From: a virus
Reading direction: 5' to 3' (one strand)
Virus record (IMG/VR): IMGVR_UViG_3300005613_000226
Location: 1-34,346 of that record
Length of the DNA stretch: 34,346 bases
Shown here: positions 3,117-34,346 of the stretch, one piece after another
Layout of the letters: the number at the start of each line of letters is the position of its first letter
How positions within the stretch are numbered: position 1 is the first letter of the stretch
The notes under the pieces: generated by a model
What the model saw: the letters and a program-made list of their open reading frames with translations, nothing else
What the model was told of the DNA's origin: nothing
Databases searched by the model: none
Translations under genes and position numbers: made by a program

Positions 3117-6100
3117 ATGATTGAGACAGGAATTGATACAAGAGTTAAGATTAACCAACTCATCCAGGGTCAATTACCATCTTATGTTCAAAGTGAAAAC
3201 CCAAAAACAATTGATTTTCTAAAGCAGTATTATCTGTCTCAGGATTCTCAGGGATCCCCTGCGGATATTATTGATAATTTAGATCAATACTTAAAGTTTG
3301 ACTATCTAACTCCCGAAGTTATTAGTGGAATTACCACTTTAACAACAAATGTTTCTGTTGATGATTCTACAGTTTTTGTAGATTCTACAAAAGGGTATCC
3401 AAATAGTGATGGCCTTTTTCAAGTCGGAAATGAAATCGTATATTATACTGGAATTACAACAAATAGTTTTACTGGATGTGTTAGAGGGTTCAGTGGCATC
3501 ACTGGATATTCCTCTGGGGAAATTGTATTCAGTTCAACTTCTGCAGAGTCTCATGAATCTGGCGATACTGTCAAGAATTTAAGTGTTGTCTTTTTACGTG
3601 AGTTTTTTAGAAATTTAAAAGTCTTATTTGCACCTGGATTTGAAGATGAGTCTTTTGTTGAAGATCTAAACGTCAATAACTTTGTCAAAGGACTTAGATC
3701 TTTTTATAAATCAAAAGGAACAGAAGATTCTTTCAATATTCTTACTTCTGCATTATTCGGTCAAAACTCAACGATTAGAAATCAGTCACAATTCCTCATT
3801 GAACCTTCTGAAGCAGAATTTAAAAACAGACTATTACTAGTTGCAGAAAAAGTAAGTGGTGGAGATCCAATTAAACTCTCTGGACAAACTTTATATCAAG
3901 ATACAAATTCAAATAATTCAGAAATTGGAGGAGCTTCTGCACCGATTTCTGAAGTTGAGTTTATTGTTAGAGGTGGGAAAGAATATTATAACATCTATCT
4001 ATTCAAAAGATTTTCAGATCCTGCTCCAGGATTTGAAGGAACATTTTCAATAACTCCCAGCACCAAATGTATTGGTGGGGCATCTGTAGGATCTGATGTA
4101 ATTACTGTTGATACTACTATTGGTTTCCCAAATAGTGGGCTCATTGTCTCTGGAAATAATGTTATTACATATACTGATAAATCAATCACTCAATTTTTAA
4201 ATTGCTCTGGAATTGATGAACCCATTAATTCTGGGGATGATGTTAGGACAAATGATGTTGCTTATGGTTTTTCAAATGATGATGGTACAAAAGTTGAACT
4301 TAGACTGACTGGGATTATTAATGAATTTCAAAAGGGTGGTAATATTTACTACTCTGATATTGGTGAGGTTTTTGAAACAAAGACTGTTGGTAAAAAAATC
4401 ATAAATCCATCACAAAATAAAACCATTGAGCAAATTACCTTCAACTCTTGGGTCTATAATACAGCTTCAAGAATTAAGATTTCCAATTTTTCTGGATCTA
4501 CATTTGTTTTAGAAGTTGATATTGATAAGTCGTATCTCCGTGATAATGATATTGTTGAAGTTATAAATCGTGCAAATGATCAAGTTGTTGTTTCAGAAGC
4601 AACAGTAACTGTATCAGGTGTCAATGAAGTTATTTTGTCTGGATCTGGAATTGGTACTTTGGTTCCAAATATTGGATATGATATTAGAAGAAAGATTAGA
4701 AAAGCGACCAGTTCTGGTATTGAATTGGAGTATGGAAACAATAAACTTTCATCCAACATTCTAAACACTTATATCACAGAAGATAATCAGCAAATTTATG
4801 TTGCTTCAAATTCTCTACCATCTTATGAAATAGATATTGAAACTATTAAATCATCAATTCCACAAGCTACAATATCTTCAGGTGCTATTCAGGATCAGAA
4901 TCTACTCACTGGAAACTATAATATAATTTCATTCCCAGCAAATGTTCCATTCATTACAGGCGATGAAGTTGTATATGTTGGTGGAACTTCTACAACTCCA
5001 ATTCAGGGACTTGAATTTGGAAGAAGTTATTATGTTGAAGTTTTAACTCCAGCAAACAGAGTTAAACTTTATGTTGCAAGATCCTTTATTGAAGTTGCTG
5101 ATAATATTGAAATCAATGTTCCGCTTGATAATGATCTTGGTAGCCATGACTTCATTCTAGCACAGCAATACAATAAAAAGATTTCTCCACAAAAACTACT
5201 CAAAAGATTTGATCTAGTAAAATCCTTTGATACTGGCAATCAAATTCAAACCATTCCTGGTGCAATCGGAATGTTGGTAAATGGAGTTGAGATTTCTAAT
5301 TATAAGATTGATGATAAAATTTACTTCGGCCCATTAAAGAGTGTTACCGTAATTAATGGTGGAGATGGATATGATGTAATCAATCCTCCAAAAATAAGTA
5401 TTTCAAATCCAAGTTCTGGAGGTTCTGTAGCTCTTGCAAATGCTGCTGTAAGAGGGGAACTTAAAGATATTTTAATTGATCCCCAGGACTTTGGTATTAA
5501 TAATATTAGCGAAATTTCTGTTACTGGTGGAAATGGTTCTGGAGCAGAAGTTGAACCAATTCTCACAGATGTCTTTAGAGAGGTTGGATTTAGTGGAAAA
5601 TACTTTACTGATGGTGGTGGGGTTTCTGTTTATGAAGACAAAATCATCACAATAAACAATCATAACTTTAAAAATGGTGAACCAGTAGTTTATAATCCAA
5701 ATGGAAACCCATCAATTCCAATTACTGGATTTGGACTAACAAATATTACTGGCAATTTCTTAGAAACGGGTGGAGTTTACTATACTGAAATTCTGTCTCC
5801 AACATCATTTAGAATTTATGATACTATTTCTGATTTCAATGGTGGTATTAACACAATTGGATTTAGCACTGGAAGCACCAGTGGTGGTCTTCATATTTTC
5901 AGACTAAGAGATTCAACCAAACAGTTAACTGGGGTCAATATTATTAATTCTGGTTCTGGGTATGAAAATAGGGAAGTTGCAATTAAAACTACAGGAATTT
6001 CAACAGTTTCAAACTCTTTAACATTTACCAATCATGGATACAATACTGGTGAACTTGTAACATACTCAACTACAGGTGCAGCTATAACTGGTCTAACCAC

Positions 6101-29893: not shown

Positions 29894-30322
29894 ATGTCTA
29901 AATCATTCGATAAAATCAGTTCTTCACTTAACACTGAAACTGAAATCATAGATGTTTCTGCAACAGAGACATCAAAAGAAATTATAAATGATGATTCAGA
30001 TTCTCTAGGGGATTTGATTGAACAAATTAAAAAAGATTATGATTACACTAGAGCAAATTTGTATTCTTTGATTGAGAAAGGTCAAGAAAGTCTTAATGGG
30101 ATTATGGAATTAGCTCAGGAATCTGATTCCCCAAGAGCATATGAAGTTGCAGGTCAAATTATGAAAAACGTCGCAGATACTGCAGATAAATTAATTGATC
30201 TCCAGAAAAAGATGAAGGAACTTAATAAAGAAGAAGAACAGGGCCCAAAGAGAGTTACTAACAATGCTCTATTTGTTGGATCCACTGCAGAACTTGCCAA
30301 ATTCCTGAAAAGTCAGAAGTAA
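29894..30322 (+). CDS. 16: terminase small subunit gp16
   Basis: gp16 is the small terminase of T4-like phages; it binds DNA and regulates the large terminase gp17 during packaging. T4 gp16 has 164 aa and this one 142. A Ser/Glu-rich N-terminal tail of about 40 residues precedes a long helical region: KKDYDYTRANLYSLIEKGQE, AQESDSPRAYEVAGQIMKNV and ADTADKLIDLQKKMKELNKE. These correspond to the T4 segment with ADSPRHMEV and LHKDMKDI, a coiled-coil oligomerisation core. The C-terminal VTNNALFVGSTAELAKFLKS matches the T4 NATVFMGSPTELM block, thought to contact gp17. Gene 17, adjacent in T4, is not found directly downstream; an unrelated 937-aa gene follows. Confidence 0.93.
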   Translation: MSKSFDKISSSLNTETEIIDVSATETSKEIINDDSDSLGDLIEQIKKDYDYTRANLYSLIEKGQESLNGIMELAQESDSPRAYEVAGQIMKNVADTADKLIDLQKKMKELNKEEEQGPKRVTNNALFVGSTAELAKFLKSQK

Positions 30323-30361: not shown

Positions 30362-33175
30362 ATGAATGAAGATCTTCGGGATTGGTTTGGAAAAGGTGGA
30401 AAAGGTGGTGTTGGTGGTGGCGGATGGGACCGTTATAACACCAAAGGTGAACGAATTGGAAAATGTGCCCGTGAACCCGGAGAACCTAAACCAAAATGCC
30501 TCTCTAAAGAAAAAGCAGCAAAAATGTCTAAGGACGAAATTGCCGCTTCGGTAAGGAGAAAAAGAAAAGCAGATCCAGTAGCTGACAGAAAAGGTAAAGG
30601 GGGAAAACCAAAGATGGTATCCAATAAAATTGGAGAACAATCTCAACCAGATTATGGAAAGTTTGATCGCAGAGTAAATGCTGCAAGAGCGACTAAAAAT
30701 AAAGATTTAAAGATCAAACTATTGAAGAGTGCGATTCCCCTTCGCCCCGAAAACATAAAGGATGAGTATGGTGGAGAAAAGAGATTTTGTCCTCTATGTG
30801 GTAAAGAAGAGACTAGATCTGAATGCTCTTATGGTCCAAAAATGTGGGACAAATTTAGCATCGCCACTGTACATCCAGCAAACGAAGAATTAACTACAAT
30901 GAACTATACCGAAAACGATCTTTTTATTGATCTATCGAATCTTTGTTTTGAAAATAATATCTTTGAAACAGAAGAGGAAACTTATTATTTTGTAGAATCT
31001 ATTATTCAGCAAGAATTAATTTATATCTTTCTAGAAGATCTTGCAGAAGAGTTAAACATTAATATCTCAGATTACCTTGTTGAAGGTCTTGTTGGAAATG
31101 TCATTAAAGGAATCAAAGGCGGATATGGAGCAGCAAGAGGTATCATTAACGCATTGAGTAAGTCTGGTAGGGCAAAGGCTGGAGTAAAAGCGGGATCTGC
31201 TCTTGGTAAAAAACCAGAGAGTGCTGTTAAAGGTGCTGCAGCTTCACAATCAATTAGATCTGCAAGAAAAGCACAAAGAGCAGCAACTAAAGGACCAAAA
31301 CCAGATGTTGCAAATCGTTATTTACAAGCACTTCAATCAAAAAGAGCTGCCAGAGGTCTTCCACCCGCTGGCGGAACATCTGCAGGAACACCAAAAGCAA
31401 TTCGTTCAAGAGCACAAGTTAAAGCAAAAAAATCTGAACTATCCCAAAAGGGCAAGGATGCTCAGCAGTGGCAAAGGTATCAAGGATCTGCAAGGAAGGA
31501 AGTTGAAAGAACTCGTCAAGCACCAAAACCTGAATGGGATAGGCCAAAATTACCCGCTGCTAAAACTCAGAAACCCAAACGTGGGTCTGGACTAACTGAT
31601 ACTGTAAGGGCAACAGGAGATGTTGGTCCATATAAAGGTCTAGAAAAATACAAACCAACTTCAACTGCACCCACTAAAAAACCAAAAGGTGCTGGTGTAA
31701 CCGCTGCTGCTGGAACTGCTGCTGCAGCATCTAAGACTAAGGATCAAAAACCTTCAACAAAATCATCTGCTAGTTCTAGTATTGGTAAGTACAATACTAT
31801 GGATCCTAGTGGTAAGGTTAGAAGTCGCCTAAAGGTTGGAGAAAAGAAAGTTGGTGAAAAAAAGGTTGGTACTCAAGCACAAAATTTTGACAAATCATTT
31901 TCTGCAGCAAGAAAGGCTGGAAAATCTGAATTTGAGTGGAAAGGTAAAAAGTATACAACCAAATTGAAAGAAGATCATAAAGAGGTTGCAAGTGGTAAAA
32001 AAATAGATGATGAAGGATATATGGCTCGTACAGAGTTAGATAAGATTGAAAAGGCAGTTGGTGAACTTCGTGGTGTGATTAAGTCACCTAAAATGCAACT
32101 TCCTGCATGGGTCCAATCAAAAATTACTAAAGCTGTTGATTATCTGGATACTGCTGCAGATTATCTTCAAACTGATGAAGTAAGTGAAGAAAAGGATCCT
32201 TGTTGGAAAGGATATAAGCAAGTTGGAATGAAGAAGAAGGGAAATAAAATGGTTCCTAACTGCGTTCCAGAGGGACTTGAAGAAAGATTTGAAAGAATTA
32301 ACACTACTGGAAAAACATATAGAGTTTTCTTCATCTTTAGAGGAAAGTATGATTCAGTCCAGTTCTTCTTCCCAACATCAAAGAGGCCAAGTAAAGAAGA
32401 AGTAGTAATTCAATTGAGAAAGATTTATCCAGATGCAAATTTGGTCAATTATATTGAAAGAGATCGTGAGCCAAATGCACCGTTAATTCAAGTTGAAGGT
32501 GCGACAACATTTAATAAGTTTTTGGAGAATGTTCAAAGTGGTCCACTACTTCCTGGAGAGGGGAGAAAAGTCTACCCAAAGGATAAGGCCCCAAAGCCAA
32601 CTGGGGCAAAACTTCCGTTGGCAAGTAGAGGAAAAGGTGGGAGTCCTTATGAACCATATACTGGACCAGAAAAAAAAGGACCTTATGTTCCAGCACCCCA
32701 AAGACCAAAACCACAAATGGCATCTTATGAACCAGAAGGTGACTTAGTTGATGAAAATCTTATAGATACTGTTAAAAACTTTGTTGGATTGGCAAAAGAT
32801 AGGGATCGAAAGGTTTCTGAAAAAACTCCAATGGGAAAAGCGGTAACTGGTCTTCAAAAAAGAAGGCAGGAAACTGATAAGTATCTAAAGATGCTAAGAA
32901 ATGACTATCAAATGGAAGATTGGCAAAAAGTCAATCGTAAAGATAAAACTGATGGTTTAAGTCAAAAGGCAGTAAATGCATATCGTAGTGAGAATCCCGG
33001 TTCAAAATTACAAACTGCTGTAACTGAAAAAAAGCCTACTGGCAAAAGGGCTGAACGTCGTAAGTCCTTTTGCCGACGTATGTCTGGGATGAAGTCAAAA
33101 CTTACTTCTGCAAAAACTGCTAGGGATCCAGATAGTAGAATCAATAAAGCTCTTCGTCGTTGGAACTGTAACTAA
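30362..33175 (+). CDS. basic multi-module phage protein, unknown function (937 aa)
   Basis: I do not recognise a T4 counterpart. The protein is a chain of short modules: a Gly-rich N-terminus with GGGGWDRYNTKGERIGKCAR; a Cys cluster (C143, C146, C155 in FCPLCGKEETRSEC); an acidic helical region (about 175-240) ending in YLVEGL; a long Lys/Ala/Pro-rich disordered stretch (about 245-505); FDKSFSAARKAGKSEFEWKG (about 508-540); EGYMARTELDKIEKAV with LPAWVQSKITKAVDYLDTAA (about 549-607); DPCWKGYKQVGMKKKGNKMV and PNCVP (about 610-637); a small domain with YRVFFIFRGKYDSVQFFF (about 652-712); and a C-terminus RRKSFCRRMSGMKSKLTSAK ending WNCN. Several modules are familiar as pieces of other marine phage proteins. 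The strong positive charge suggests DNA contact or a head-internal location (inference). It overlaps the next gene by one base. Confidence 0.8.
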   Translation: MNEDLRDWFGKGGKGGVGGGGWDRYNTKGERIGKCAREPGEPKPKCLSKEKAAKMSKDEIAASVRRKRKADPVADRKGKGGKPKMVSNKIGEQSQPDYGKFDRRVNAARATKNKDLKIKLLKSAIPLRPENIKDEYGGEKRFCPLCGKEETRSECSYGPKMWDKFSIATVHPANEELTTMNYTENDLFIDLSNLCFENNIFETEEETYYFVESIIQQELIYIFLEDLAEELNINISDYLVEGLVGNVIKGIKGGYGAARGIINALSKSGRAKAGVKAGSALGKKPESAVKGAAASQSIRSARKAQRAATKGPKPDVANRYLQALQSKRAARGLPPAGGTSAGTPKAIRSRAQVKAKKSELSQKGKDAQQWQRYQGSARKEVERTRQAPKPEWDRPKLPAAKTQKPKRGSGLTDTVRATGDVGPYKGLEKYKPTSTAPTKKPKGAGVTAAAGTAAAASKTKDQKPSTKSSASSSIGKYNTMDPSGKVRSRLKVGEKKVGEKKVGTQAQNFDKSFSAARKAGKSEFEWKGKKYTTKLKEDHKEVASGKKIDDEGYMARTELDKIEKAVGELRGVIKSPKMQLPAWVQSKITKAVDYLDTAADYLQTDEVSEEKDPCWKGYKQVGMKKKGNKMVPNCVPEGLEERFERINTTGKTYRVFFIFRGKYDSVQFFFPTSKRPSKEEVVIQLRKIYPDANLVNYIERDREPNAPLIQVEGATTFNKFLENVQSGPLLPGEGRKVYPKDKAPKPTGAKLPLASRGKGGSPYEPYTGPEKKGPYVPAPQRPKPQMASYEPEGDLVDENLIDTVKNFVGLAKDRDRKVSEKTPMGKAVTGLQKRRQETDKYLKMLRNDYQMEDWQKVNRKDKTDGLSQKAVNAYRSENPGSKLQTAVTEKKPTGKRAERRKSFCRRMSGMKSKLTSAKTARDPDSRINKALRRWNCN

Positions 33176-33489
33176 TGAAATCATTCAAACAATTTTTATC
33201 CGAAAGCGTCACCATTCAGGGAGACTTCACTGGTAACATGTATATCGGTGGGTCTTCTCAAGAACCTCGACAGGTTGGTGAGAACTACGTTGCAGATGTA
33301 ATGTGGAATGGGTCACTATATAGAATGGAACTTACTTGTGAAGGTATGCCGTCCAATAAAGAGTTGTCTGAACAACTTCAAAGTGAATATCCTGGTGCAA
33401 TTGTCCACAACATTTATCCAGTACAGGAAGGATCTGTAAATATTACAAGAACTAAAAGATACCACCCCTCAAAACTAGATTGGGTTTGA
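33175..33489 (+). CDS. putative capsid-targeted internal protein (104 aa)
   Basis: The N-terminus MKSFKQFLSES aligns without gaps to the capsid-targeting sequence of T4 internal proteins (MKTYQEFIAEA in IPIII, recalled from memory). Met1, Lys2, Phe7 and Glu10 are the same and the others are mostly conservative. In T4 the gp21 prohead protease cuts after I/L-x-E, and here L8-S9-E10 followed by S11 fits that site. The rest is a Gly-rich segment (FTGNMYIGGSSQEP) and a small alpha/beta domain (about 38-86: YVADVMWNGSLYRMELTC, PSNKELSEQLQSEYPGA) that resembles residues about 652-712 of the preceding protein. The start shares one base with the upstream stop. Injection with DNA or head packing is inference; function is unknown. 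Confidence 0.75.
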   Translation: MKSFKQFLSESVTIQGDFTGNMYIGGSSQEPRQVGENYVADVMWNGSLYRMELTCEGMPSNKELSEQLQSEYPGAIVHNIYPVQEGSVNITRTKRYHPSKLDWV

Positions 33490-33492
33490 TTT

Positions 33493-34346
33493 ATGGCTCA
33501 GTGGAATAAGACTACACAAGACTTCTTAAATCAAGAGAGAAGTCTCTTTGAGGTATATAATATCGCAGATCACTGGGGAAATCAGACTGATTGGAGACCT
33601 CAGTTTTCTGACAATAATAGACTAAAGGTTGCTCCCTTCCAAACAGTTTTCTTCAATACCTTTCAGTATGGTAAGGAGACTGATGTTTGGGATGAGAGCT
33701 TAGTTGGTGTTGCAACTGCTACTCATAATCCTGCTTCCAGTAATGTTGTTATGGAAGTTGGCTCTACTGCTGGTAGTAAGGTTATCAGGCAAACCAAACA
33801 GGTAATGAGATACATTCCTGGTAGACCAGCAACTCTCGCATTTGCAATTCGTCTAGAAGCACCACAAGTCGGTATTCGCAGAAGATTCGGATTGTTTAAT
33901 GAGACTGATGGTGCTTACTTTGAGGATGATGGAGGCACATATTCTTATGTAATTCGCAGCAGTACATCTGGTATCACTACAGAAACAAGAGTAACCAGAG
34001 ACAACTGGAACGGTGAAAAGTTTGATGGTAATGGATACACTGGTGTAACTGCTGATGCTACAAAACAGCAGATGATTTCCATTAACTATGAATGGTATGG
34101 TGCAGGTGGTGTAACATTTAATTGGTTAATGAAAAATGAGACTATTGTTAGCCATGAATTTGAGAACTCAAATGTCAATGATTTAGTTTGGTGTAGAAGT
34201 CCATTCCTTCCAATTCGTTGTGAGATTGAGAATGTAACTGGTGTTGCTGGAACTCATTATCTTTATCAGGGCTCTAACTCTCTTATCCAAGAAGGTGAGC
34301 CAGAAAAACTTGGTGCTTTGTTGAGTATCTCAAATGACATCACTGG
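33493..34346 (+). CDS. virion structural protein, N-terminal part (runs off window end)
   Basis: An open frame starts three bases after the preceding stop and continues for 284 codons to the window edge without a stop, so the gene is cut only by the window. The N-terminus MAQWNKTTQDFLNQERSLFE has the style of a large marine T4-like phage structural protein family. Other marked segments are MRYIPGRPATLAFAIRLEAP, VGIRRRFGLFNETDGAYFED, SYVIRSSTSGITTETRVTRD, QQMISINYEWYGAGGVTFNW and VWCRSPFLPIRCEIENVTG. The pattern suggests a lectin- or jelly-roll-like beta sandwich, perhaps on the virion surface. It is not terminase gp17: no Walker A motif is seen. The function is unproven. Confidence 0.8.
   Translation, partial: MAQWNKTTQDFLNQERSLFEVYNIADHWGNQTDWRPQFSDNNRLKVAPFQTVFFNTFQYGKETDVWDESLVGVATATHNPASSNVVMEVGSTAGSKVIRQTKQVMRYIPGRPATLAFAIRLEAPQVGIRRRFGLFNETDGAYFEDDGGTYSYVIRSSTSGITTETRVTRDNWNGEKFDGNGYTGVTADATKQQMISINYEWYGAGGVTFNWLMKNETIVSHEFENSNVNDLVWCRSPFLPIRCEIENVTGVAGTHYLYQGSNSLIQEGEPEKLGALLSISNDIT

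Follow-up and report, generated by a model that had tools for sequence, protein, structure and literature searches.

The window analysed here, 34,346 nt in length, is a viral-contig record in its entirety and comes from a T4-like cyanophage. Its genes include those for the baseplate and gp13-gp16-like ones, together with a modular 937-aa ORF, an ORF of 104 aa and the start of a phrog_1645 gene. The 104-aa protein, which is the target of this analysis, begins MKSFKQFLSESVTIQGDF, its N-terminal residues being MKSFKQFLSES, and the ATG of its gene overlaps the stop codon of the upstream ORF (TAATG). The features of the locus are as follows.

29894..30322, + strand: terminase small subunit gene (gp16-like), which places the window in the head and packaging module
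30362..33175, + strand: modular 937-aa ORF with DUF6321 at its end; the annotation of its homologue SSCSM1_29 reads 'virion protein'
32279..32515, + strand: part of the upstream ORF, a domain to which the body of the 104-aa protein is related (93% probability and E = 2e-7 in a profile-profile comparison)
32504..32530, + strand: degenerate tag copy inside the upstream ORF (TTFNKFLEN; KSFEQFIGE at the equivalent site in S-T4 gp187)
33175..33489, + strand: 104-aa ORF (target protein), phrog_1742 (profile match, E = 5e-42)
33175..33204, + strand: capsid-targeting-like decapeptide MKSFKQFLSE, with positions 4, 7, 8 and 10 as in T4 (PMC9026906)
33202..33207, + strand: predicted prohead-protease bond E10/S11 (L-S-E, then S), based on the conservation of E10 and S11
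33205..33486, + strand: predicted mature protein (calculated: 94 aa, 10.6 kDa, pI 5.0)
33280..33420, + strand: small beta-beta-alpha-beta domain, residues 36-82 (AlphaFold model, pLDDT about 84-91)
33493..34344, + strand: start of the gene for the phrog_1645 virion structural protein, the usual downstream partner (E = 1e-126)

The coordinates, the start and the N-terminus that a first-pass annotation had given for the 104-aa ORF agree with the sequence. The phrog_1742 profile, to which no function is assigned, covers residues 1-99 and is the sole match of the protein in the PHROGs search, while the Pfam search returned no match. Homologues occur in 138 phage records, all of which are cyanophages. 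Among isolates, Synechococcus phage S-T4 (Kyanoviridae) is the nearest; its gp186 is 77% identical to the target protein, and the gene order is shared.

The capsid-targeting sequence (CTS) of T4 IPII and IPIII was reportedly described by Mullaney and Black in 1996. The first-pass annotation had likened MKSFKQFLSES to this tag and given the T4 sequence as MKTYQEFIAEA; this is correct, as both IPII and IPIII begin with these residues in NC_000866. Over the first 11 positions, the 104-aa protein is identical to the two T4 proteins at residues 1, 2, 7 and 10, is conservatively substituted at 3, 4, 6, 8, 9 and 11, and differs at 5. In the T4 CTS, the main determinants are residues 4 and 7 for targeting and residues 8 and 10 for processing (PMC9026906). 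F4, F7, L8, E10 and S11 of the 104-aa protein provide all four T4-critical positions and the small residue at position 11, so that the (I/L)-x-E site at residues 8-10 and the small residue after it, both pointed out earlier, are present; the four critical positions are, moreover, near-invariant among homologues. Judged by its sequence, the N-terminus is best read as a T4-type CTS. A CTS-like start is also found in T4 itself outside the ip genes, in gp61.1 (MKTFKEFIKED), a 54-aa protein with no assigned function whose gene (NC_000866, 18966-19130) adjoins 61.2 (adfA).

The tag was formalised as a T4-derived rule, M..[FYW]..[FYW][ILVMF].E, in a widened form that also accepts F at position 8, and applied to five complete cyanophage genomes (S-T4, Syn9, S-SZBM1, S-CREM2 and S-SCSM1). 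At longest-ORF starts the rule is matched by 7 of 3064 ORFs, compared with a mean of 0.375 after shuffling of residues 2-41. A DNA-form pattern gave 43 matches in 20 records, compared with 7 for the reversed control; 17 of the 43 belong to the 104-aa gene family, and T4 IPII and IPIII were recovered as positive controls. The narrower pattern proposed for a genome-wide search by the first-pass annotation occurs once in the 34 kb of the window, which is the whole record, and the wider set of tagged proteins comes from the related phages described below.

Of 158 homologous loci, 156 keep the motif MK[SN][FY]..[FY][LIM].E where the body itself starts. In the remaining two, the ORF opens with MKSF, and about 40 and 150 inserted residues precede the body; since insertions occur at this point, tag and body are separable modules. 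One long-insertion relative retains the junction NLGE/SVNISGD, the cut point lying between E and S. All 60 representatives have E10, and 58 have S at position 11, where A and G also occur. Position 4 is occupied by F or Y and position 7 by F in 59 and Y in one, while L, I or M stands at position 8. One locus set was fetched by N-terminal patterns and therefore carries no independent weight for N-terminal conservation; less biased sets agree. Taken alone, a match of ten residues noticed by eye is weak evidence, and chance similarity was considered as its explanation. It was rejected in view of the shuffles and the reversed-pattern control, and the conservation in 156/158 loci already refutes it, leaving it with next to no probability.

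At annotated starts in the five genomes, the rule picks only the 104-aa family, cytidylyl/NMN-transferases, a SAM lyase, an APH-like kinase, a basic protein encoded next to terS and a DUF6321 protein, and none of these families is a known replication enzyme or another purely intracellular enzyme. The tag is carried by a small set of families in related phages, several of them detected in virions; the first-pass annotation had suggested that the tag, if borne by many genes of the phage, would define an internal protein set. Its worry that the same N-terminus might be common in non-virion proteins does not apply to related cyanophages. For the cytidylyltransferases, the S-CREM2 protein alone retrieved one locus, and an alignment query was used instead. 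Among 80 homologues fetched by catalytic motifs, with the N-terminus disregarded, 78 have a tag-like start, 70 of them in exact T4 register, and residues 3, 5, 6, 9 and 12 are variable. Tagged cytidylyl/NMN-transferases include S-T4 gp137, Syn9 gp184, SSCSM1_91 and S-CREM2 gp154. In most cytidylyltransferases the tag is followed by a G-H-G-W/Y module, which is also present in the nuclease-like and kinase proteins of S-CREM2.

Other tagged proteins were noted in S-CREM2 and in relatives of the window. S-CREM2 gp6 (3837-5081) starts MKDFDSFLEE; it is a SAM lyase by Pfam (PF23780, E = 2e-19) and was detected in virions. In the gp12-gp14 stretch of the same phage (7704-12846), gp12 has LRFASFMAEA at residues 17-26, gp13 starts MKDLHSFLTE, and gp14 is the APH-like kinase, with a GTG start and the tag-like sequence KRFDAFLTEE. 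The label 'Cas9' borne by gp12 is unsupported by Pfam or PHROGs. Two further small proteins carry the tag, namely MKTFKQFISEASEGGSPYREY, of 151 aa, encoded immediately upstream of the 104-aa gene in relatives, and MKTFQQFIAEIKTISFKMAKPHK, of 59 aa, which is Lys/Gly-rich; their loci are L130, L136 (G013:28398) and L138 (G002:92994).

Mass spectrometry detected cytidylyl/NMN-transferase in the virions of S-CREM2, S-SCSM1, S-SZBM1 and S-SM1. The S-CREM2 virion list also holds the SAM lyase, the kinase, the basic protein gp136, gp13 and gp12, and the products of all S-CREM2 genes with the motif at the annotated start (4/4) are in the virion proteome. When three phages were pooled, 5 of 8 motif proteins were virion-detected, compared with 127 of 719 genes overall (Fisher p = 0.006), and p was 0.0001 against non-structural virion proteins only, in a test based on small numbers and on a rule finalised after part of the data had been seen.

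Homologues of the 104-aa protein were absent from the two virion proteomes consulted. S-SZBM1_191, which offers six usable tryptic peptides, is missing from the S-SZBM1 table, and SSCSM1_30, which offers four short ones, is not reported for S-SCSM1; both proteomes are of limited depth. To map the gene tags used in the S-SZBM1 paper, the RefSeq number was subtracted from 276, with the capsid, scaffold, protease and portal genes as anchors. Both gene neighbours of the homologue were detected in S-SCSM1 virions, and the downstream neighbour in S-SZBM1 virions. A 'virion protein' annotation of the homologue in relatives was discarded, as S-SCSM1 calls SSCSM1_30 'hypothetical' and places it between two genes labelled 'virion protein'. 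The first-pass annotation had suggested that the protein is head-packed or injected and had named absence from virions as a finding that would speak against it. The sequence tests bear out the T4-type tag; a place in the mature, injected head is so far unsupported, the homologues having gone undetected in the S-SZBM1 and S-SCSM1 proteomes, which goes halfway towards the absence named.

The phrog_1645 gene lies downstream of the 104-aa homologue in 131 of 156 loci, and the gene pair occupies two sites. At the first, which is that of the window, the pair lies between DUF6321/terS and terL. At the second (78/156 loci), it follows the portal gene and a small gp67-like ORF, and gp21, gp22 and gp23 are found downstream where the contig extends. 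The order in T4 is 20-67-68-21-22-23; in these 78 loci the order 20-67-68-21 is matched on the portal/gp67-like side, so that half of the relatives carry the gene where T4 has gene 68. The small acidic-tailed ORF occupies, in the interval from portal to gp21, the position that gene 67 has in T4; it is present in 78 loci (for instance, at 2838-2999 in L232 and at 129480-129656 in S-T4); gp67 has been called absent from cyanophages (PMC2984593).

The AlphaFold model of the 104-aa protein predicts residues 1-32 to be disordered. The best match of the small domain among solved structures is T7 Gp2 (Z 4.8, 2.2 Å over 50 residues; Foldseek E 0.16). Small alpha/beta folds of ribosomal proteins score almost as high, and the resemblance to Gp2 was for this reason kept at low probability. 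Sequence relatives were not found among solved structures (best E 0.2), and the searches of Pfam, PHROGs and solved structures returned no family with known activity, and no clear enzyme or inhibitor family, for the body. A BLASTP comparison of the 104-aa protein with the upstream ORF was not significant (E = 0.11), while the later profile comparison was, and viral predicted structures agree with the relation between the body and the domain in the DUF6321 protein. In S-SZBM1 the equivalent module is a separate gene starting MKTFKQYITEA. The 937-aa ORF (30362-33175) looks like a chain of modules, each a gene of its own in relatives; it contains tag-like segments and is possibly a head polyprotein.

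A gp21-type protease gene was not found within the 34-kb window and is present in relatives. In all relatives examined, the T4 gp23 cleavage point is preserved in cyanophage gp23 as L-x-E followed by A or T, and since the T4 processing point is kept in this way, trimming of the 104-aa protein at E10 is likely, the tag probably being cut between E10 and S11. The gp21 C-termini of S-T4, Syn9, S-SZBM1 and S-SCSM1 end in F..FL..L-like sequences that resemble the F..FL core of the tag; to judge from this similarity, the C-terminus of cyanophage gp21 may dock at the same core site as the tag.

We propose, with a probability of about 0.7, that the 104-aa protein is a component of the prohead interior that uses a T4-type CTS. 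The protein would be made from a conserved two-gene cassette together with the phrog_1645 structural protein, and its first ten residues would be the working equivalent of the T4 CTS. During head assembly, we infer, the tag would bind the protein to the prohead core, the aromatic residues 4 and 7 forming the docking face, and a gp21-like prohead protease would cut after E10, leaving a 94-residue protein beginning SVTIQGDF. The reading is supported by the T4 match and its conservation, the tag on virion-detected enzymes, the gp21 and gp23 of relatives, the head-gene surroundings, and the relation of the body to a domain of the DUF6321 protein that S-SCSM1 labels a virion protein; the undetected homologues, Ser in place of Ala at P1' and the acidity of the mature protein speak against it. 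The mature protein would then either stay in the virion in few copies and be injected, or leave with the core; given the negative proteomes, a core role or a low copy number is favoured. These two fates are sub-cases that together make up the proposed reading. That the protein is packaged, cut at E10/S11, kept with the DNA and injected, its mature domain acting early on a cyanobacterial target, is suggested by a tag of the kind found in T4 internal proteins and cyanophage virion enzymes, and by a separate small folded domain behind an N-terminus predicted to be disordered. This fate is nevertheless somewhat unlikely, given that the homologues are missing from two virion proteomes and that the 94-aa body belongs to no clear enzymatic or inhibitor family. 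The other fate, that of an assembly-only core protein standing in for gp68, which enters by the tag, helps to build the core or to load phrog_1645 and is removed or degraded at maturation, would account for the missing detection. It is plausible, if short of an even chance: a gene position that in half of the loci falls between the portal/gp67-like ORF and gp21, the frequent pairing with phrog_1645 and the acidic character of the protein speak for it, but the protein has no sequence similarity to gp68, which is basic, just one further L-x-E site (LSE, residues 64-66) is available and lies within a predicted helix, and the other half of the loci, window included, have the gene before terL.

The same gene pairing (131/156 loci) could mean that the N-terminus is a short amphipathic helix that docks on an operon partner, either phrog_1645 or the DUF6321 protein, and has no part in targeting, and the tag-like segments within the neighbouring polyprotein fit this idea. 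Yet the decapeptide pattern also starts unrelated virion-detected enzymes encoded elsewhere in the genome, and E10 and the small residue after it, superfluous for docking, are kept, making a docking helix improbable. More speculative still is the idea that one N-terminal code loads an NAD-making enzyme, the SAM lyase, the kinase, a nuclease-like protein and the 104-aa protein for injection, the last being a head-delivered, Gp2-like RNA polymerase modulator in the role of T4 Alt; we regard it as a long shot.

If the tag acts as proposed for the prohead interior, it would have a bearing beyond this locus. In studies of cyanophage virions that contain metabolic enzymes, the authors were unable to say whether the enzymes are packaged or contaminants (PMC10665884, PMC9602691). 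A T4-type tag on virion enzymes would provide a mechanism by which NMN-transferase and SAM lyase could enter cyanophage virions, and the tag could serve as a genome-wide predictor of cyanophage cargo carried into the cell. If the SAM lyase of S-CREM2 is packaged in the head, it would, as an anti-restriction enzyme, parallel T4 IPI. Our literature search found no report tying a capsid-targeting sequence to cyanophages, and none naming the tag sequences as text. The 104-aa protein itself represents a highly conserved tagged family with no assigned function.

Four known systems can be compared with the 104-aa protein. T7 Gp2, an inhibitor of the host RNA polymerase, is the top fold match, but its scores fall within the range of a common arrangement and there is no sequence match; Gp2 is not known to be packaged in the head. 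T4 gp68 is matched in gene position by the 104-aa gene in half of the loci (downstream of a gp67-like ORF, upstream of gp21), whereas the order in the window differs, and gp68 is a larger, basic protein with no sequence similarity to the 104-aa protein. The cyanophage virion cytidylyl/NMN-transferase (phrog_395) shares the tag start MKSF..FL.EA, and both proteins come from T4-like cyanophages; in contrast to the small, virion-undetected 104-aa protein, the transferase has 290-430 aa and a catalytic domain and is detected in virions. As regards the T4 internal proteins, differences are found in the P1' residue (Ser in the 104-aa protein, Ala in IPII/IPIII), in charge (the 104-aa protein is acidic, with a calculated pI of 5.3 at full length and 5.0 in the predicted mature form, while the T4 proteins are basic), in the body, which is unrelated in sequence to IPI-III, in gene location (a head/packaging operon rather than the ip locus) and in virion presence, which is established for the T4 proteins and went undetected in two proteomes for the homologues. 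Being acidic and unrelated in sequence, the 104-aa protein is outside the IPI-III families and would work like a CTS-tagged protein. With IPII and IPIII it shares the decapeptide, with aromatic residues at positions 4 and 7, I or L at 8, E at 10 and a small residue at 11, and all are small proteins of phages from a family that has the gp21 protease and the gp22/gp23 core genes.
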